The notes below the pieces were generated by a model. That model was not told the origin of the DNA. It ran no database searches and saw nothing but the letters and a program-made list of their open reading frames with translations. From a virus, in IMG/VR virus record IMGVR_UViG_3300014497_000013, positions 1-42,988 of that record: a stretch of DNA of 42,988 nt, one strand, 5' to 3'. Both the position numbers and the translations under genes were made by a program. Of the stretch, positions 15,720-42,973 are shown piece by piece. Numbering within the stretch: position 1 is the first letter of the stretch; each line of letters opens with the position of its first letter.

Positions 15720-15875
15720 ATGAGCAATAAAAAAAGAATTTCGAAGCTTCAAAAAAACAAATTAAGATCTGATTTTTTGAAAAAATATTGTATTAAGACG
15801 AGCAATAAGCACGTTTTAGGATATGAATTTGGTGTTGATTTTGGAAAAGGTTACTCCAAAAGTATTATCCACTAA
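15720..15875 (+). CDS. 51-residue basic protein of unknown function
   Basis: The product is strongly basic in its first half (MSNKKRISKLQKNKLRSD) and has a hydrophobic-aromatic second half rich in Gly. It is the second frame of a small transcription unit bounded by the promoter at 15586-15618 and the terminator at 15903-15926. Size and charge fit a nucleic-acid-binding peptide or an accessory gene. No family is recognised. Confidence 0.45.
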   Translation: MSNKKRISKLQKNKLRSDFLKKYCIKTSNKHVLGYEFGVDFGKGYSKSIIH

Positions 15876-25045: not shown

Positions 25046-26842
25046 TTATTTTTGTATATCTTGCAGAAGATCTAATATATCAACAGACATTAAGTCCGGA
25101 ATATCATCAATTACTTTATTAATAATTTCTAACTTCAGAAGTTCTTCTTTATTTTTTTTACTTGTTTTCAATTCATCAAATGCTTTGATATATGCCTCTT
25201 CAAGTTTATGACCCTGATGAAGTAAAAACCAATTCGGTAGATTTATTTTTAAATTATTAAGAAGAGTAACTTCTGTGTAGCCTTCAATAGCTAAAGCTTC
25301 CTTATCAGTAAGAAAAGGGTGTAATTTGTCTAGTATATTATCAGCTATGGCTTGAAGTTTTTGAGAATCAAAGGTTTTTAAATCAATGTAGGTTTCATCA
25401 GCCGAAAGTCCTAATTCTTCTCGGTCAATATACTTTTCTCTAAGTAAAAGAGCCGCAACAAGTAGAGGGTCAAATAAATAATTTTCTATACTATATCTTT
25501 GTTTCCACCCTAAAACTGAGACAAATTGACATTCTGGCATTTCTGTGTTTCTATCCCAATCAATAATTCCCCATATAAAGTTATTACCATACCCTCTCAT
25601 CAATGTTGTTATTTCCTTAACATTATCACAACTGTGTTTTCCTACCCCGAATTCATTTTTTTGAACATCTCCAGATGCGATAAAATTCAAAGAAATTTCA
25701 GGTTTCAATTTTGGTGATAAGATAGCGTACAACCTTTCATAATATTTGACATCATATGGACTTTCTACAAAAATTTGTCTTCTGTTTTCATAATTGATAC
25801 TGAAAGAAGGTACACCCTCAGTTAATATTTTTAAAGCAGCATCTCTTGTATTTGATTGAATATAGGGTTTTGAATCAATCATAGTGTAAATACTATCTTT
25901 GGGAGCTAATGCCACGGTAGTAGGATTGTGTGTTGTCATAATAACCTTAATGCCTTTATCCTTTACAAAAACCTCTTCTACTACATTTAAAAAATATTTA
26001 ATCATTGAAGGATGAAGAGATGCATCAGGCTCATCCATTAATAATATTTTAGGATATGGAAATTCACTATTAGTATTATATATACTAAAAGCTATTGAGA
26101 TAATCACTTGCTCACCGGAAGATAAATCATCAAATTTTATTTTAGTTCCATTTTTATTGTTTATGAGATACAAATTAAAAGGCGTATCTAATTCATCAAA
26201 TTCTGGAGTTTCTACAGAGTAGTTAATATTTAGGGAAGCAAAAATTTTATTAACAAAATCCCATGGAGCTTCACCATAAAATTCAAGAAATTCGTCGGAA
26301 GACATAAAAAATTTATTAGTTTTACCTTCAGAAAGATTTAAAAATTTTTTATAATTATTATTCCTCAATATTTTAGCGTAAAAGGTACAAGCCAAAATAA
26401 AATTTTTATAAAATACATCTTCTGGTCTTGCATTAAGATTCAAATAAAAAAAATTTTTAAAATCATCTTGCACTAAGCTATCTGGATTTTTTTTAACAAA
26501 TCTTGCGATTTTATTGTAAGTCTCTTGTAACTGTGGAGATTTTTCCAAGCTCATTCCTGCTGTCCATGTTGCCAGATGGCTTTCGTAAGCAGATGAATAT
26601 GAAAGTAATTCATATTGCGACAAATGTTGCTCTTCAGTAACATTTTTAAAAGAACTGCTATCTATAAGTTTAATTAGAATTGGATAGTTTTCGAAGTCAT
26701 TCTCAATAGATTGAGTCTTGATGGAATTTAAAAAAAAAGTTTTACCAGAACCATTTAATCCTGTAATTATACATAAATCCGGCAAAACAATTTGGCATGG
26801 TTCAAAGAAACGTAATTTTTCTTTGATAGTAAATGTAATCAT
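25046..26842 (-). CDS. Fused ABC/AAA ATPase - DUF4435 protein (PARIS/OLD-like defence)
   Basis: The 598-residue product joins two parts. Residues 1-350 are an ABC-type ATPase: Walker A GLNGSGKT (28-35), signature LSSGEQ (240-245), Walker B ILLMDEPDASLHP and His305 in TTHNP. Residues 355-598 have FVESPYDVKYYERL, IIDWDRN and SIENYLF, the Toprim-like acidic pattern of DUF4435. The same pair forms AriA and AriB of the PARIS anti-phage system, which is also known as a single fused gene; OLD nucleases have a similar build. It is on the minus strand, clearly AT-richer than its neighbours, and interrupts the late genes, as an acquired accessory gene would. TATATTCG upstream is a near-match promoter. 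Confidence 0.8.
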   Translation of the reverse strand: MITFTIKEKLRFFEPCQIVLPDLCIITGLNGSGKTFFLNSIKTQSIENDFENYPILIKLIDSSSFKNVTEEQHLSQYELLSYSSAYESHLATWTAGMSLEKSPQLQETYNKIARFVKKNPDSLVQDDFKNFFYLNLNARPEDVFYKNFILACTFYAKILRNNNYKKFLNLSEGKTNKFFMSSDEFLEFYGEAPWDFVNKIFASLNINYSVETPEFDELDTPFNLYLINNKNGTKIKFDDLSSGEQVIISIAFSIYNTNSEFPYPKILLMDEPDASLHPSMIKYFLNVVEEVFVKDKGIKVIMTTHNPTTVALAPKDSIYTMIDSKPYIQSNTRDAALKILTEGVPSFSINYENRRQIFVESPYDVKYYERLYAILSPKLKPEISLNFIASGDVQKNEFGVGKHSCDNVKEITTLMRGYGNNFIWGIIDWDRNTEMPECQFVSVLGWKQRYSIENYLFDPLLVAALLLREKYIDREELGLSADETYIDLKTFDSQKLQAIADNILDKLHPFLTDKEALAIEGYTEVTLLNNLKINLPNWFLLHQGHKLEEAYIKAFDELKTSKKNKEELLKLEIINKVIDDIPDLMSVDILDLLQDIQK

Positions 26843-27684: not shown

Positions 27685-28350
27685 ATGTGCTATTACGTCG
27701 ACGCTAAGCTTACGAAAAAACAGGTTCGAGAAATCTTTAATGTTGAAACCGATTTTAAGGATTTTGAAGGCGAAAAAATGCTCTCGGGGTTTCGAGCAAA
27801 AGGAACCGTTGATAAAGCCCTGCCGATAATTACCGATGATAATCCTGATTCTGCAATTCTGGGTGATTGGGGATTATTGCCTTTTTTTTCAAAAGATAGA
27901 TCTTTTCAGTCAAAAACATTGAATGCTGTAATTGAGGAACTAGAACTAAAAAACAGTTATAAAAATAGTATTAATAAAAGATGTTTGGTTTTGGTTAATG
28001 GCTTTTATGAGTGGCGTTCGCTAGACAAATTCGGCAATCCTGATCCCGATGGCAAAGTAAAACAATTACACAGAATTCATTTAGATAATGGAGATAAACC
28101 ATTTGCTCTCGCTGGCATTTATAATGTCTGGAATGATATAACTACTTTCTCAATTTGCACAACAAAAGCAAACACATTGATGGCAGATGTTCACAATTCA
28201 AAAAAAAGAATGCCTGTAGTACTAAATGATTATGATCATGAAAAGTGGCTAAATAATCCTGTATATTTAGATTTTGCACATCCTAACTACGATGCCAAAT
28301 TAATTATGGAAAATTTAGAACCGGAGAAAATCCCACAAACACTTTTTTGA
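27685..28350 (+). CDS. SRAP protein (YedK/HMCES family)
   Basis: The 221-residue product shows the SRAP signature. Cys2 directly after the start Met makes a covalent bond with abasic sites, Asn lies in LNAVIEE, RCLVLVNGFYEW carries the key Glu, and HNSKKRMPVVL the conserved His. SRAP proteins guard abasic sites in single-stranded DNA against breakage. The family runs about 220 residues, as here. The active Cys sits in MCYY rather than the common MCGR. In a phage it may protect replicating DNA or counter base-excision damage. It is followed 1 nt later by the next gene. Confidence 0.9.
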   Translation: MCYYVDAKLTKKQVREIFNVETDFKDFEGEKMLSGFRAKGTVDKALPIITDDNPDSAILGDWGLLPFFSKDRSFQSKTLNAVIEELELKNSYKNSINKRCLVLVNGFYEWRSLDKFGNPDPDGKVKQLHRIHLDNGDKPFALAGIYNVWNDITTFSICTTKANTLMADVHNSKKRMPVVLNDYDHEKWLNNPVYLDFAHPNYDAKLIMENLEPEKIPQTLF

Positions 28351-30375: not shown

Positions 30376-31008
30376 ATGAAAAACTTTTTTGATAAGAGAT
30401 ATTCCATCAGGTTAATATGGCTTATTTGTGCATTTGTAATTTTAACTTTTGTAACTACATTTTTATGTCTTCGATATTTAGTGGATTATGATGCTCCGAT
30501 TGCTTTTGATTATACCTATAAATTTACTTTATGTCTATTTGCATTTATAACTCTTCTATATCACTTTCATAATTTAGAGAATCAGATTAGGACACAAGAA
30601 AATAGCAATAAGCAGAATTTAGCTAAATATACTTATGATATATGTTCTGATTTCCGTAGACCCGTTATGATGGAGGTAAATGAGCATGTTAGATGTTTAG
30701 TTAAAGACCAAAAAAATAATTTGGAAAGACACACTATAAAAGATTTTCATAAATATATTGAAGAAACAGAAAATAAAGAAAAAAGAATGGCATTAATAGT
30801 AACCCTAAACTATTTTGAAAGCGTTTCAGCAATGGCTCTTGCGGGAGATCTAGACAATGAAATAGTAAAAAGGTTATTTGGCAAGCTATTTGGACGATAT
30901 TATTTAACTTTTCAACATTATATAAATTATAGACAAGAGGAAGCATCAAAAGTGTGGGTAAATTTTGAAAAGCTTGCAATAAAATGGATTAATGATGAAA
31001 AGTCTTAG
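30376..31008 (+). CDS. Two-helix membrane protein with cytoplasmic domain (DUF4760-like)
   Basis: The 210-residue product has two hydrophobic helices (about residues 12-36 and 48-66), then a helical soluble domain of about 140 residues with NLENQIRTQENSN and YFESVSAMALAGDLDNEIVK. This build resembles DUF4760-type proteins. It has its own promoter at 30354-30361 and interrupts tail genes, so it is a good candidate for a gene expressed from the lysogen, for example for superinfection exclusion. The role is inferred from context. Confidence 0.6.
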   Translation: MKNFFDKRYSIRLIWLICAFVILTFVTTFLCLRYLVDYDAPIAFDYTYKFTLCLFAFITLLYHFHNLENQIRTQENSNKQNLAKYTYDICSDFRRPVMMEVNEHVRCLVKDQKNNLERHTIKDFHKYIEETENKEKRMALIVTLNYFESVSAMALAGDLDNEIVKRLFGKLFGRYYLTFQHYINYRQEEASKVWVNFEKLAIKWINDEKS

Positions 31009-31017
31009 AATTTTGTA

Positions 31018-31178
31018 TATATTTGACGAATCAAAATAGTGAAAAAAATAAATCAAAAACCAATTTAAATACAATCGATATGGCAAATACAATTAAAAGA
31101 GACTACGATGGTATCTAGTCTTAAAATAGACAAACAATTATTAACAATATTTAAAACCTCCCAAATCGGGAGGTTTTT
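31018..31178 (+). other. Small promoter-terminator unit without a clear gene
   Basis: TATATTTG at 31018-31025 and a perfect terminator (9-bp stem 31154-31162 with 31168-31176, then T) bracket about 125 nt. Inside it are only a 12-residue frame (MANTIKRDYDGI, 31080-31118) and a 29-residue frame that runs into the terminator. This may be a small RNA, a leader peptide or the remains of a broken gene. The -33 element is not clear. Confidence 0.4.
31154..31178 (+). terminator. Intrinsic terminator
   Basis: A perfect 9-bp stem with a 5-nt loop and a run of five T on the plus strand. Confidence 0.8.
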
Positions 31179-31218
31179 CTTTTACGGTATCCCATAAATT
31201 TCATTTCCTATTTTTCGA

Positions 31219-31226
31219 TATATTTG
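31219..31226 (+). promoter_or_regulatory. -7 promoter element of the DUF4468-type gene
   Basis: TATATTTG matches TAnnTTTG and lies 15 nt before the ATG at 31242. A frame extension starting at 31224 would overlap it. Confidence 0.55.
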
Positions 31227-31241
31227 CGGAAAAATTATACC

Positions 31242-31793
31242 ATGAAAAAACTTTTATTTCTATGCGCTGTTTTTTTTGCGCTTGTTTTTAAATCTCAGGA
31301 AATAGAACCTTTAAAATATGAAGAAGTTATAAAGGTTTCCGATAGTTCTAAAAGTGAAAAACAACTATATGCAAATGCTAAAATTTGGTTTACACAAGTA
31401 TTTAAAAATCCAAAAGAAGTAATTATTCTGGATGATACAGAAAATAACATATTGATAGCAAGAGGAAATATTCCTTATATAAGTAAAATTGGATTTGGGT
31501 CTGCTTGTAGAAAAGGTTATATTACTTTTGAAATGCAAATTGCTATAAAAAAAGGAAGATATAAATATAATTTTAAGGACTTTTATCACAAAGGAGATTG
31601 TTATGATTTGGGAACAATTACAAATGAAGAGTTTTTATCAACAATGAAAGGGGCTTTTGCAGGAGGCCCACTTAATTATAAAATAAAAGTTACAAATGAA
31701 TTAAGAGACAAGGTTAAGACCCATATAGAACCAATAATATTACTGCTTAAGCTTGAAATGGATAAAAAATTAGCAACAAAAGAAGATTGGTGA
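31242..31793 (+). CDS. Exported DUF4468-type protein
   Basis: The 183-residue product starts with a signal peptide (MKKLLFLCAVFFALVFKSQ; cleavage probably near residue 19, no lipobox Cys at the site). The mature part fits DUF4468, common in Bacteroidota: KQLYANAKIWFTQVF, then strands with DDTENNILIARG and YITFEMQIAIKKGRYKYNF. Its function is unknown in general. With its own promoter and terminator it is an independent accessory unit in the tail region, probably expressed in the lysogen and exported to the periplasm. Confidence 0.75.
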   Translation: MKKLLFLCAVFFALVFKSQEIEPLKYEEVIKVSDSSKSEKQLYANAKIWFTQVFKNPKEVIILDDTENNILIARGNIPYISKIGFGSACRKGYITFEMQIAIKKGRYKYNFKDFYHKGDCYDLGTITNEEFLSTMKGAFAGGPLNYKIKVTNELRDKVKTHIEPIILLLKLEMDKKLATKEDW

Positions 31794-31799
31794 AAAAAT

Positions 31800-31832
31800 A
31801 ATCTTGCAAAATATTGCAAGATTATTTTTTTT
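31800..31832 (+). terminator. Intrinsic terminator of the DUF4468-type gene
   Basis: A perfect 10-bp stem (31800-31809 with 31814-31823), a 4-nt loop and eight T. The 3' arm also holds the TTG of the next promoter. Confidence 0.8.
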
Positions 31833-31843
31833 CTGTACATTTG
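31814..31843 (+). promoter_or_regulatory. Bacteroidota-type promoter of the structured leader RNA
   Basis: TTG at 31814-31816 and TACATTTG at 31836-31843 with 19 nt between them match the vegetative promoter pattern of Bacteroidota. Transcription should start at about 31848-31851, at the first base of the pairing segment described in the next entry. Confidence 0.7.
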
Positions 31844-31847
31844 CTAT

Positions 31848-32030
31848 AGCGAAAAACCACAGACAGAGGAAAGTCTCAAAACATCCAGACAACTTTAACG
31901 AAAATTAAATAAAGACTTTGGTCTTGATTAATTGGCAATACATTTCCTCGGAATTGTGGTTTTTCGCGAAACGCCAAGAAAGTCAAGACCTTTTTTGTGC
32001 TTTAAGAGGAAACTTTTAAATAAATATAAA
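31848..32030 (+). ncRNA. Candidate regulatory RNA with alternative pairings
   Basis: The 5' end (segment A, 31849-31861) is perfectly complementary over 13 nt to segment B (31955-31967). GAGGAAA (31866-31872) pairs with TTTCCTC (31943-31949) within the same fold. A different fold pairs 31920-31927 with 31983-31990 and 31932-31936 with 31973-31977, and is followed by six T: a terminator-like hairpin that uses B in its loop. An exact copy of A (A', 32033-32045) starts at the third base of the next gene, so B can also pair with the coding start. This fits a leader switch, or a separate RNA of about 148 nt. Confidence 0.55.
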
Positions 32031-32321
32031 ATGCGAAAAACCACAACAAAAACAGCCAAAAACCAAAGTCAAAGTAAGTTTTTAGGCAACCGAAGAAGAA
32101 GATTATTAAATAGAAATTTTGTTCCGGTACTTCCGTCAAATGCTAATCTCAGTGTAAAACAAAAAACAGATATTTTCTGCAGAACTTTTGCCGGAGTTTT
32201 TCATGTGAAATACAATTCTCAAGAAACAGGAAGATTTGCGCAAGGATTTGGTGCAACGCTTGAACTTGCTTTCACCAACATGCACATTCATTTTAACGAA
32301 AAATATAATTGTCATGCCTAG
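32031..32321 (+). CDS. Basic protein downstream of the structured leader
   Basis: The 96-residue product begins MRKTTTKTAKNQSQSK with a strongly basic N-terminus (GNRRRRLLNR) and a more regular second half (FAGVFHVKYNSQETGRFAQG). The ATG at 32031 is chosen over a longer frame from 31932 because the latter reads through the structured RNA. The first codons contain A', which is complementary to segment B of the leader. It overlaps the next gene by 8 nt. Function unknown; a nucleic-acid-binding protein is plausible. Confidence 0.6.
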   Translation: MRKTTTKTAKNQSQSKFLGNRRRRLLNRNFVPVLPSNANLSVKQKTDIFCRTFAGVFHVKYNSQETGRFAQGFGATLELAFTNMHIHFNEKYNCHA

Positions 32322-32592
32322 ATTAATGGATACTTACGGATATAAAATCTGCATTCTATTATCATTTATGCAGGACAGAGTGAAAGAAAACAAAAACTTC
32401 ATCGACAGAGTAATGGCGGTAAAGAGACAAATTCGCATTGGTGATCCCATAGACGACGATGATCAATTATTTGTAAGCGATATTTTGGATGATGTGATAA
32501 GAATTGCAGAAATGTGCACCAATCACGAAGATTTTGGCAAGTTTCTTTTTACACACGCCGATATAGATGCGTATCTTCCAGCCTCAAAATAA
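32314..32592 (+). CDS. Small protein of unknown function
   Basis: From the ATG at 32314 the product has 92 residues, helical and acidic in the second half (IGDPIDDDDQLFVSDILDDV). It overlaps the basic protein gene by 8 nt, so the two may be made together and could act as a pair. A longer frame from 32236 would lie inside the previous gene. The family is not recognised. Confidence 0.55.
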   Translation: MPRLMDTYGYKICILLSFMQDRVKENKNFIDRVMAVKRQIRIGDPIDDDDQLFVSDILDDVIRIAEMCTNHEDFGKFLFTHADIDAYLPASK

Positions 32593-32616: not shown

Positions 32617-32651
32617 CCCCGCTGTCCTTTTATTAGGATGTCGGGGTTTTT
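32617..32651 (+). terminator. Intrinsic terminator of the accessory unit
   Basis: A stem CCCCG/CGGGG with an inner TCCT/AGGA pairing and five T close the unit that begins with the promoter at 31814. Confidence 0.75.
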
Positions 32652-32706
32652 ATTTTTGTCTGTAAATGTCCATCGATGTCTAACATTTGTCTAACTATTT
32701 TCCACA

Positions 32707-39425: not shown

Positions 39426-41270
39426 ATGGAAACAAAATTTATATCTGAACTTGGATCGGAAGATTTGACAAATATTCCGATCAGCGTAGAAGAAAGCAAT
39501 TCGAAAGTTGCAGACAGCATGTTTACCAAATTTACATTACCGTTTGAAAGTGTTGCTTCTGCTGATTTCATAGCGATGTATGGTGATTACCTAAGCAATG
39601 AAAGCAATAATTTGAAAAATAAGATCGTCGGAAAATTTCAGTTTGAAAACAAATTACACGATGCTGAAAGATTTATTCAATCAATTCAAGGCAATAAGCT
39701 CACTAATCAAATAGATTTTGGCTTTGAAGAATTACCAAATTTTGATAAAAAATTATCTGAACTACCTTTAGAAAGTTTTGAAGTTTCTGATATACACATT
39801 TACGCAAAAGAAATTGCAGGAAAAACATGGCCACAGACTAATTTTAATTTTCCGAGAATATACACTAAAAAATATTCTTCGGATCAACAGATTTGGAGTT
39901 CATTTGATGGCTACTACAACGATCTGAAAACTGATGGCACAGAAATGCGTAGGAATTATGTTGATGGAAGTGGTAATATTTTCAATTTAAATATTATTCA
40001 TCCTACCCCACATCCAATTTATATTTTAATTACTGGTTTTCAAGATGCCGGTTTAGAGTTAAAGGGTGATGTTCTTACAGATCCTGTTTTGCAAAAAAAA
40101 TGGATTTTCTCCGGAACAGAATATTTTGGAAAAGTCAACCAGTTTTCAAATGAAGTCAGAGTGCTTTCCAATGAATCTATAAAATCGGAATGGAAAGATC
40201 ATATTAAATACGGCAATATCTTAATTTTCACATATGGAAAAGAAGAACAGTTGAATTTTCAGGATTTGGTGTTTGTAAGCGTAACTTTCCGAGCAAAAGT
40301 TCAGGCAGATTGGACTTTAAAATTCAAAGTTAGAATCAATGGAAATGATATCTATTCCCATGAAGAATATTACAGTCAATTTTCAGATGTTACCAAAACT
40401 TTTCAAACCAGTATCAATGTAAATTTTGCAAATATTTCTTTTCATGTGGAAGGCGCAGTTCTTGGAATAAATGAAGCTTATGAGGTTATTAAATATGAAT
40501 TGAAATCAAATTCAATTATTACTGTTGAATCTGAAGCTCAGGATTTTGATAACTCTTTAGTGAAGAATGCCAACAAAATAGACCTTAAAAAAGCAGTTCC
40601 GGATATGACTTTTGGCGAATATTTTAGTATTCTCAAAAACTGGCTGAATTACGATTTAGACATTGTTGACAATATTGCGATAATGAATAAAATAAACACT
40701 GAAGAAATTTCAGATGTGAAAGATTTTACTTATTATGAGACAAAGTATCCTAAAAGAACATTTTTAAATAAAAAATCATGGCTGCTAAAATTTGACGAAC
40801 TTGATAATGATGCAAAAAAAGACTCTCTTTTTTTTGATTCTTCAGGGGTAAAAATTAATGGTGCCGAAAATGAAGAAACTAACGTTATTGAAATCAACGG
40901 TTATGTGATGCCGGTAAAGCTTCCGAAAGAAAACGGATATAATACAGCAATGATGATGAAAGATTCTTCAAGTACACTAGCTTTGGTTGATTATGATGGA
41001 ATAAAAGACGGGCAAAATAACGCTAATTCTGTTTCAGACTGTGATTTCCCTGATCTTTTTGAAACGCATTGGAAAAGATGGCTTCAAATGCGGTTAAACG
41101 GGCAGGAGTTTCAATGGTCCGCAACAATAAAGATATGGCACATGGCTTTGTTTAACATCAAAAATTATATTTACGCCTACAATAATATTCACATCATAAA
41201 AAACTGGAGTAAAAACAAAATCAGTAAAGATTATTATCAAGTCGAATTTACTACAGAAACTATCTCTTAG
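39426..41270 (+). CDS. Tail tip / baseplate hub protein
   Basis: The 614-residue product is the third large gene after the tape measure, the place of the tail-associated hub (Tal-like) protein. It has long beta-rich parts and a C-terminal domain with KNWLNYDLDIVDNIAIMNKI. No lysozyme or peptidase motif is visible. Its last 4 nt overlap the end of the integrase gene on the other strand, marking the end of the late genes. Confidence 0.65.
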   Translation: METKFISELGSEDLTNIPISVEESNSKVADSMFTKFTLPFESVASADFIAMYGDYLSNESNNLKNKIVGKFQFENKLHDAERFIQSIQGNKLTNQIDFGFEELPNFDKKLSELPLESFEVSDIHIYAKEIAGKTWPQTNFNFPRIYTKKYSSDQQIWSSFDGYYNDLKTDGTEMRRNYVDGSGNIFNLNIIHPTPHPIYILITGFQDAGLELKGDVLTDPVLQKKWIFSGTEYFGKVNQFSNEVRVLSNESIKSEWKDHIKYGNILIFTYGKEEQLNFQDLVFVSVTFRAKVQADWTLKFKVRINGNDIYSHEEYYSQFSDVTKTFQTSINVNFANISFHVEGAVLGINEAYEVIKYELKSNSIITVESEAQDFDNSLVKNANKIDLKKAVPDMTFGEYFSILKNWLNYDLDIVDNIAIMNKINTEEISDVKDFTYYETKYPKRTFLNKKSWLLKFDELDNDAKKDSLFFDSSGVKINGAENEETNVIEINGYVMPVKLPKENGYNTAMMMKDSSSTLALVDYDGIKDGQNNANSVSDCDFPDLFETHWKRWLQMRLNGQEFQWSATIKIWHMALFNIKNYIYAYNNIHIIKNWSKNKISKDYYQVEFTTETIS

Positions 41271-42484
41271 GCTAAATCTGTATATTCAGAATATATTGGT
41301 AATTCTAAAACTTTTGCATCTATAACAGCATCAATTATCTTCCTGTGAACTTCATCTTTGATTTTTACAGGAAATTTACCTTCATATATTGACAGTGTGT
41401 CACGCTGTGCATGCCCTACCAATTCTTTAATAATATCTCTGTTCTGATATAATTCCATACTTCCAATATGAATGAACGAATATCGGGGCGATTTCGAGTC
41501 CACATGAGTGAAAATTTTGATCTTCGAAAATATCGGCTTCATACGTGCTACATAATTCTTACGATAATCAGCATAATTATACTTGTAAATAGGAAGAATA
41601 TATTCTGATTCTTCATCATGAAAAAAATCTATTATTTTCTGAGCCTCTGGAAATATCCTATTGTTAATAACTTCTCTTGTATTTCCTTTTTCCCGAACTT
41701 TTTTAACTCGACCAAATTTGATATCTGATTTTTTAAGACTTGCAATATCAATAAAGTCGAGACCACCTAAATAAAAGCATAAGAGAAAGTACTTATAATA
41801 AACATGATTGACCGGATTTTTTACAAGTATTTGCATTTCTGAAATGGTCAGATACTTATCTTTAGTAGGCATTTCCTTCTCCATTATTTTATTGAAAGGA
41901 TAATTGCCCTCATTGGTGTACATTCCCCTTCTTATAGCTTCATTATAGATTGCTCGGATAGTTTTGAGATATGAATTAATTCCACTTGCCTTACAGCTTG
42001 ATGATTTTTCTATTTTAAATTTTGTTAAAAAATCATAGGTTATCTCATCATAGGACAGAATTGATTTATAATTTTTCCAAACATTCAAAGCCGCTTCATA
42101 AACACCAGCATTGCCAGTCGTTTTTATTGCTTTATTCTTGTTTTCGAGTTTCTTTTTCTCTTCAGCTATTCTTTGCTGCCAGAATGCATAGATATCGCCA
42201 TCATTTCCGAATAAATAATTTTTAATCTGATTTGAGGATCGTTTTAAATTTGATTTTTGAAGTTTATGTATCTTAATTTTAAAATCTGAAACCTTATCAT
42301 AAACTAAAAAATACTGCGGATGAGATTTTTTAGGTTCTTCACGTTCGAAATCCCAGTGCTCGGCGAAAGAATATAATTTTATTGCAGGATAGCATCTATC
42401 AGACTTAGTGACGAAAATATTAATAACGATCGGGTGACCGTTTTGTCTCAATTTACTCTGATCAAGCGTAATATTTACTTTCAT
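41267..42484 (-). CDS. Tyrosine recombinase integrase
   Basis: From the ATG at 42484 the product has 405 residues (an ATG at 42505 adds 7). An N-terminal arm-binding domain (1-95), a core-binding helical domain (100-200) and a catalytic domain (210-390) are visible. Catalytic candidates are Lys265 in REKGNTR, Arg334 in SPRYSF, His358 in LVGHAQ and Tyr367 in LSIYEG. The usual first Arg is absent: GGLDFIDIASL has Asp243 there, and the HxxR His is not His. Loss of the first Arg is also known from IntDOT of the Bacteroidota. The gene lies 106 nt from the restored tRNA-Thr and is oriented away from it. Confidence 0.9.
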   Translation of the reverse strand: MKVNITLDQSKLRQNGHPIVINIFVTKSDRCYPAIKLYSFAEHWDFEREEPKKSHPQYFLVYDKVSDFKIKIHKLQKSNLKRSSNQIKNYLFGNDGDIYAFWQQRIAEEKKKLENKNKAIKTTGNAGVYEAALNVWKNYKSILSYDEITYDFLTKFKIEKSSSCKASGINSYLKTIRAIYNEAIRRGMYTNEGNYPFNKIMEKEMPTKDKYLTISEMQILVKNPVNHVYYKYFLLCFYLGGLDFIDIASLKKSDIKFGRVKKVREKGNTREVINNRIFPEAQKIIDFFHDEESEYILPIYKYNYADYRKNYVARMKPIFSKIKIFTHVDSKSPRYSFIHIGSMELYQNRDIIKELVGHAQRDTLSIYEGKFPVKIKDEVHRKIIDAVIDAKVLELPIYSEYTDLA

Positions 42485-42589
42485 GTCTGGAAAATGTCTG
42501 AACAAAAATACGATTTTGTAAATATTTTGTAAATATTTACAAGAAAATCACGAATAAAATATCAAATAAAAAACTCGTTGAAAAACAAA

Positions 42590-42614
42590 AAACACATTGA
42601 TTATCAATGTGTTT
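42590..42614 (-). terminator. Phage-borne replacement terminator for the tRNA operon
   Basis: A perfect 11-bp stem (42604-42614 with 42590-42600) and a 3-nt loop are followed on the minus strand by a T-rich tract. It ends 6 nt before the tRNA-Thr 3' end. It takes over from the host terminator displaced to 176-203. Confidence 0.85.
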
Positions 42615-42618
42615 CATC

Positions 42619-42666
42619 TGAGCCAACTACGGGACTTGAACCCGTGACCTCTTCCTTACCAAGGAA
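42619..42666. repeat. attR: 48-nt core, part of the restored tRNA-Thr
   Basis: Identical to 210-257. It supplies the 3' part of the complete tRNA-Thr; bases after 42666 are host sequence for the tRNA 5' half. Confidence 0.92.
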
Positions 42667-42692
42667 GCACTCTACCGCTGAGCTAAGTCGGC
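42621..42692 (-). tRNA. tRNA-Thr(GGU)
   Basis: A complete cloverleaf of 72 nt: 7-bp acceptor (one G:T pair), anticodon loop TTGGTAA with anticodon GGT, T loop TTCAAGT and T discriminator; CCA is not encoded. Its 3' part is phage-derived. Confidence 0.95.
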
Positions 42693-42732
42693 CTAAACAA
42701 AAAAATCACACTATAGAGTATGATTTTTTTTG

Positions 42733-42805
42733 AGCGGAAGACGAGGGTCGAACTCGCGACATTCAGCTTGGAAGGCTGACGCTCTACCAACTGAGCTACT
42801 TCCGC
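42733..42805 (-). tRNA. tRNA-Gly(UCC)
   Basis: A complete cloverleaf of 73 nt: acceptor GCGGAAG/CTTCCGC, anticodon loop CTTCCAA with anticodon TCC, T loop TTCGACC. It is upstream of tRNA-Thr in the same minus-strand operon. Confidence 0.95.
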
Positions 42806-42892
42806 AATTTTGTTTCCAAAACTATTGGTAAACGCTGTGCAAACTTAAGGAAAACCCTTTAAAAATGCAAGACTTTTTTTTAATATAAAATG

Positions 42893-42973
42893 TGGGGAGA
42901 GCAGGATTCGAACCTACGAAGCCGAAGCAACTGAGTTACAGTCAGTCCCATTTAGCCACTCTGGAATCTCCCC
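42893..42973 (-). tRNA. tRNA-Tyr(GUA)
   Basis: A complete tRNA with long variable arm: acceptor GGGGAGA/TCTCCCC, anticodon loop CTGTAAC with anticodon GTA, A discriminator. The order Tyr-Gly-Thr is the one known from the thrU-tyrU-glyT-thrT cluster of Escherichia coli. Confidence 0.95.

Follow-up and report, generated by a model that had tools for sequence, protein, structure and literature searches.

A leader RNA in a Bacteroidota prophage carries one antisense word that can pair with either of two copies of a sense word, and we think that this sense-antisense-sense arrangement is probably a bistable switch that works at the start codon of the next gene downstream. It appears to represent an undescribed structured RNA family of Chryseobacterium-group prophages. 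The DNA that we analyzed, called the window here, is the full 42,988-nt virus record IMGVR_UViG_3300014497_000013 from IMG/VR (positions 1–42,988). It is a prophage, with an integrase beside three tRNA genes at its right end. The integrase is a tyrosine integrase and the tRNA genes are on the minus strand (41267–42973), so that this is probably the attachment end; at 212–268 a fourth, weak tRNA-like match could be the fragment at the opposite prophage end. Table 1 lists the features of the leader and its genes.

Table 1. Positions in the window of the leader RNA elements, their genes and the flanking signals.
Feature	Positions	Strand	Remark
Upstream terminator-like hairpin	31793–31830	+	perfect 17-bp inverted repeat, 4-nt loop, T-run
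Bacteroidota-type promoter	31814–31843	+	TTG (31814–31816), 19 nt, TACATTTG (31836–31843)
A	31849–31862	+	first 13–14 nt of the presumed RNA; pairs with B as helix P1
A2 (GAGGAAA)	31866–31872	+	pairs with B2; inner extension of P1
P2 5' strands	31920–31936	+	inside the A:B loop; 31920–31927 pairs with 31983–31990, 31932–31936 with 31973–31977
B2 (TTTCCTC)	31943–31949	+	partner A2 or A2'
B	31954–31968	+	antisense core; partner either A or A'
P2 3' strands and T6	31973–31996	+	31973–31977 and 31983–31990, T6 31991–31996; terminator-like
A2' (second GAGGAAA)	32006–32012	+	25 nt 5' of the start codon
p96	32031–32321	+	controlled gene (96 aa), presumed target of the leader
A'	32032–32046	+	start-codon bases 2–3 and codons 2–5; copy of A, target of B
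p91	32317–32592	+	second gene; start overlaps the p96 stop (ATGCCTAG)
Hairpin CCCCG...CGGGG with T-run	32617–32654	+	read from sequence; likely end of the unit

The first 13 nt of A (31849–31861, GCGAAAAACCACA) are 100% complementary to B at 31955–31967. The start codon of p96 is at 32031–32033, and B pairs with A' over 14 nt (31954–31967 with 32033–32046), or 15 if T32032 is counted as a G-U pair. None of 300 dinucleotide shuffles of the leader reached the A':B duplex. The folding energy of the 150-nt RNA is -43.8 kcal/mol, well below the average of its shuffles (-24.8; z = -5.7). A repeat search of the leader found only A/A' and the GAGGAAA copies, plus weak two-copy matches. A preliminary description of this DNA had reported the three-way complementarity, the promoter in front of it, and two copies of GAGGAAA with a single partner; on re-reading, the coordinates of all of these were exact, and the triad recurs in homologues in the same register and with different sequence.

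Transcription is expected to start near 31849, as judged from the promoter, and nearly all of the homologues have a TAnnTTTG-like box about 4–6 nt 5' of A. The TTG box, at -33, lies inside the 3' arm of the perfect inverted repeat, which looks like a terminator of the upstream gene; a similar hairpin is found 5' of the promoter in several homologues (e.g. L003, L125, L129, L130, L140 and L144). L003 and L125 also have a hairpin matching the one at 32617–32654, which is likely the end of the RNA-p96-p91 unit.

Together with the window there are 20 distinct loci, the 19 others coming from genomes of Weeksellaceae and from contigs of IMG/VR. Searches with the p96 protein led to one IMG/VR contig (L003) and to Chryseobacterium sp. 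YIM B08800 (L125). Profiles run against the genus of YIM B08800 (175 genomes) and against its family (323 genomes) gave L129–L132 and L139–L144, an order-level search (398 genomes) added L146, and scans of IMG/VR added L147–L154, among which L148 and L151 are distinct. These first 16 distinct loci were found by protein similarity alone, with proteins down to about 24% identity, and for that reason their leaders are an independent test of the pairing. Homologues that keep the protein and lose the complementarity had been named beforehand as the result that would speak against a switch, and we saw A, B and A' kept, with different sequence, in all 16. A covariance model of the leader that stops before A', searched in the family, gave L162, L163, L164 and L166, and A' was present in all four. 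The E-values of this RNA model are rough, and the order-level search with it was strictly filtered and may have missed divergent members. The 20 loci all follow one plan. After a TAnnTTTG-type promoter comes A, at the presumed +1; B follows at a distance of about 100 nt, and A' starts from base 2–3 of the start codon.

Some matches were set aside. L133 was a short, weak protein match (E 6e-4, with a stop) that has no triad and is absent from the matches of a better profile. Two order-level matches of the RNA model (L172 and L173, E 0.03–0.04) and a match in the window at 15843 have no triad either, and matches on the antisense strand reflect the palindromic A:B helix. The 14-mer pattern of A hit 119 unrelated stretches in viral contigs, and a 14-mer is too short to be informative. 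Neither the DNA nor the protein had a match in a phage genome collection.

A, B and A' change together from locus to locus. There are 12 different A' 10-mers among the first 16 loci, and the words differ widely (GCGAAAAACC, GCTACAAACA, GCTAAACCCA, GCGAAACAAA, GCAACATCAA, GCTAAACATT, GTACAACAAT, GGAAGTAACA, GTCAAACACA and others). Across 12 positions in 20 loci, 227 of the 240 A':B positions are Watson-Crick pairs, 5 are G-U and 8 are mismatched; the same 240 positions of A:B have 220 Watson-Crick pairs, 15 G-U pairs and 5 mismatches. The A':B energy with the locus's own B averaged -20.8 kcal/mol, compared with -10.1 for foreign B (22 rows, 16 distinct), and a foreign B was better than the own B in none of these 22 rows. 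For a set of 14 loci the values were -20.2 and -8.7 kcal/mol.

The preliminary description had suggested a covariance analysis of homologous leaders, and in 10 aligned leaders both A:B and the helix that we call P2 covary. In P1, the A:B helix, every cell (100%) is paired and 7 of 14 pairs have double changes; the main stem of P2 reaches the same 100%, and 2 of its 8 pairs have double changes. For P1 and P2 together, 98.5% of cells are paired and there are 10 double-change pairs (0 of 500 shuffles); slid controls had less than 48% paired. We consider the evidence for a pairing switch to be very strong. The earlier reading of the region as an attenuator, a start-codon-blocking switch or a small RNA silencing its neighbor gains support from complementarity that is kept in every protein-found homologue. 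Covariation by itself does not tell cis-only action from action in trans.

P2 holds B in its loop and is followed, in the window, by six T's. It is present in all 14 loci tested (0–8 of 300 shuffles), and T's are mostly present after it, with a poor T-run in the L139/L140/L143/L144 group. The preliminary description had listed this helix as a third fold, and its coordinates, the position of B in the loop and the six T's were right. The fold does not exclude A:B. The two helices cross and both covary, and because they cross they can coexist only as a pseudoknot. It is plausible from the sequence that P2 and its T-run form the 3' end of a short RNA of about 145 nt. The shorter set A2, B2 and A2' is a covarying three-way set in 6 of the 20 loci, where GAGGAAA/TTTCCTC/GAGGAAA changes in step, to GAGGATAA or AGGGAAA. 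The remaining loci have A2:B2 alone, often clear and sometimes weak.

We folded the leaders with a nested model at 30 C, which excludes pseudoknots. In the intact leaders of the 20 loci, A is the main partner of B in most cases. A':B was the clear winner at equilibrium in five (L003, L146, L148, L162 and L164), and in L129 the two were about even. The predicted resting state is not uniform among the loci. When A was deleted, A':B became dominant in 18 of 20 loci; since A:B is the main pairing in most intact leaders, this indicates that little energy separates the two states. At 11 positions A pairs by G-U and A' by Watson-Crick, and the reverse holds at 2. Because the pairing of A' covers the U and G of the AUG, A':B should block initiation, and occlusion of the start site is an established way of blocking translation initiation.

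Our proposed mechanism is as follows. Transcription would start at A. With B, about 100 nt after A, sitting on A, the start codon would be free and the gene ON. When B instead sits on A', covering the last two bases of the AUG and a few codons after it, the start codon would be hidden and the gene OFF, and A would compete with A' for B. P2 and the T's would probably end part of the transcripts as the short RNA of about 145 nt, and the remaining transcripts would read through into p96 and p91. We regard the evidence for a separate short RNA as moderate. Such an RNA carries both A and B and could therefore tip the switch in further mRNA molecules. By pulling B off A', its A could activate, as in IsrK; by sitting on A', its B could repress, as in P1 c4 and P4 CI. 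For the sign and the target of this trans action the evidence is weak.

A single genome has both L140 and L144, each on its own contig. Over 83 aa the two proteins share 98% identity, and the same 98% holds for a 55-bp segment that includes the upstream terminator and the promoter. Between about +1 and codon 12 the sequence similarity is lost, and the two loci have unrelated, orthogonal triads. The window and L125 have the same type of protein (CDS 90%) and their A/B/A' differ (50–57%); L125 and L131 have the same triad, with identical B, and different types of protein (CDS 59%). At L164 the module stands 5' of a protein without evident similarity to p96, in a different type of prophage. By sequence comparison, specificity is independent of the protein type, and the two appear to be shuffled independently. 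Near-identical proteins with orthogonal triads in one genome suggest that the RNA acts in trans. By analogy with heteroimmune phages, selection for distinct trans-acting identities would give this pattern, and drift plus recombination is a possible source of the swaps in specificity. We tentatively raise the idea that the modules may be a new class of orthogonal antisense identity tags, encoded by Bacteroidota phages. The short RNA would act in trans on any incoming or co-resident phage with a matching A/B/A' word, at its start codon, its specificity would diversify and be swapped like an immunity or incompatibility group, and p96 would possibly bind double-stranded RNA and read or stabilize the duplex.

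It may also be that the leader works purely in cis, as an attenuator or kinetic timer with no trans RNA. A:B would form first, in the course of transcription, with the start open for a time; later A' would displace A or A would decay, translation would cease, and P2 would tune read-through. In favor of this, A is the very first part of the RNA to be transcribed, ahead of A'; G-U pairs weaken A:B at positions where they do not weaken A':B (11 against 2); A':B takes over in 18 of 20 loci once A is removed; and pairing in cis accounts for all of the covariation. However, a cis leader leaves unexplained that specificity evolves more quickly than the protein and is exchanged as a whole (L140/L144, window/L125), and it gives no reason for the orthogonality of two copies in one genome, though drift is possible there. 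We give the purely cis leader a minor share of our belief.

The order of promoter, pseudoknot-forming RNA, terminator and small protein is also that of type III toxin-antitoxin modules (PMC5086642), and we considered a type III-like toxin-antitoxin or abortive-infection module with the pseudoknotted RNA as antitoxin and p96 or p91 as toxin. The location among accessory genes and a weakly double-stranded-RNA-binding-domain-like model of p96 would fit. This reading is very unlikely in our judgment, as the RNA has no tandem repeats, the protein matches no toxin or other family, an RNA that binds a protein needs no complementarity to its own start codon, and the codons at the start of the gene vary along with A', in keeping with a constraint on RNA-RNA pairing. 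Even less probable, we believe, is that A, B and A' are DNA sites for a repressor overlapping the +1 and the start codon. One short word does occur three times near the promoter (two direct, one inverted) and a DNA-binding protein could coevolve with it. Against such operators, the departures in A:B are mostly G-U compatible (15 of 20), the covariation of P2 and of A2:B2 is that of RNA helices, A' keeps its register on the start codon in 20 of 20 loci, and p96 proteins that are 98% identical go with unrelated words, as different proteins go with one word type (L125/L131). An insertion or target-site duplication as the origin of the A/A' repeat was rejected because at every locus B has changed in concert and A' holds its place on the start codon. 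Group I intron, retron and TnpB-guide readings were also rejected, since we saw none of the corresponding proteins in the neighborhood and the register does not suit these elements.

p96 had no sequence match in Pfam, PHROG or the PDB, and p91 had none in Pfam or PHROG; neither protein matched a ToxN/CptN/TenpN endoribonuclease in Pfam, nor did p96 in PDB sequences. Two AlphaFold models of p96 have a confident alpha-beta-beta-beta-alpha C-terminal half. Double-stranded-RNA-binding domains were the commonest class among the top Foldseek matches of these models, none of which was significant (best E 0.08–0.15), so the modeled resemblance of this half to such domains is weak. In some relatives, e.g. 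L132, p91 does not directly follow p96. The module stands 5' of a shorter p96-like protein in L142, L146, L162, L163 and L166; the prophages of the first four are arranged differently, and L166 is near a contig end.

In the main group, the RNA unit sits between p167 and p103/p152/tape measure and adjoins interchangeable accessory genes. Its surroundings are accessory and tail genes and are not a known immunity region. The accessory genes directly upstream (30376–31793 in the window, with equivalents in L003, L125, L148, L169 and L171) encode DUF4760, DUF4468, HIRAN-like and BRCT-containing proteins, and this hotspot is worth mining for defense or exclusion genes. Elsewhere in the window there is an AAA_21 / OLD-AbiEii-like ATPase gene in the late region but on the minus strand (25046–26842), which is a possible prophage-borne defense gene, and a gene for an SOS-response-associated peptidase (SRAP, YedK/HMCES type) at 27685–28350. 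The L140 copy (L170, G318 contig 39, 6324–9460) is near an integrase without a tape-measure gene between them and may be a remnant or a rearranged prophage; the L144 copy (L171) has a tape measure. In the L164 prophage (L169, 10926–12709), the 100-aa gene presumed to be under RNA control is followed by a gene pair for an HTH protein and a RelE-like protein, and then by the tape measure.

Rfam covariance models found no family except tRNAs in the window or in any homologous locus, and nothing near a gathering score in the leader. This cmscan result agrees with the preliminary description, which had recognized no known riboswitch class. The arrangement that c4, P4 CI and IsrK have in common, an antisense word complementary to an upstream copy and to a translation-start target on one transcript, is present in 20 of 20 loci. 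P1/P7 c4 with a1b1 and a2b2 underlies phage heteroimmunity, and c4 controls the icd/ant antirepressor genes in the immunity region. Like c4 (RF01695), our module has two antisense words (B, B2), each with one copy of its target upstream (A, A2) and another in the region of the ribosome start (A', A2'), in tandem on one strand. Unlike c4, it is in a different host phylum, with different structure and adjacent genes; cmscan found no c4 match in the window or the homologous loci, and where c4 has icd/ant in an immunity region, here p96 and p91, without a Pfam or PHROG family, are among accessory and tail genes. Satellite phage P4 makes its CI RNA by processing, and the effect there is to end transcription prematurely in the replication operon. 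The seqA - CI RNA (seqB) - seqC arrangement of P4 likewise has an antisense core between two sense targets on one transcript, but here P2 is intrinsic-terminator-like, the downstream target is a start codon, and there is no Rfam match. Because the module lies outside a known immunity region, the role of c4 and P4 in lysogeny need not carry over. The c4 and c4-a1b1 RNAs are listed for Proteobacteria and phages (PMC2864571).

In Gifsy-1 IsrK of a Salmonella prophage, one promoter gives a short terminated RNA and a silent read-through mRNA, which the short RNA activates in trans (PMC4825925). Our leader is similar in its prophage location and its two alternative folds, and in our proposal a short terminated RNA would also open the start region of a small ORF in trans. 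It differs in that IsrK controls orf45-anrP (an antirepressor) in a regulatory region, and p96-p91 are among late or accessory genes of a Bacteroidota prophage; there is also no sequence or covariance-model match to IsrK, and here the start codon is copied at the 5' end of the RNA and the crossing P2 is conserved. Type III toxin-antitoxin modules (ToxIN, CptIN) share the order of promoter, pseudoknotted RNA, terminator and protein, but our module lacks the RNA repeats and a toxin-family protein, and it is complementarity to the start codon that defines it.

We found no Rfam family for this RNA and no description in the literature that we searched. The logic is shared with P1 c4, P4 seqA-CI-seqC and Gifsy-1 IsrK, yet the RNA is not a member of those Rfam families. 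To our knowledge, few phage regulatory RNAs are known in Bacteroidota. The covariation is triple and extends into the coding sequence at the start codon, which makes the case for mutually exclusive pairing unusually clean. The roughly one dozen natural, orthogonal switch words are a series for testing cis against trans antisense control. Bacteroidota ribosomes depend little on Shine-Dalgarno pairing, and the leader offers a handle on the control of translation starts in this phylum.
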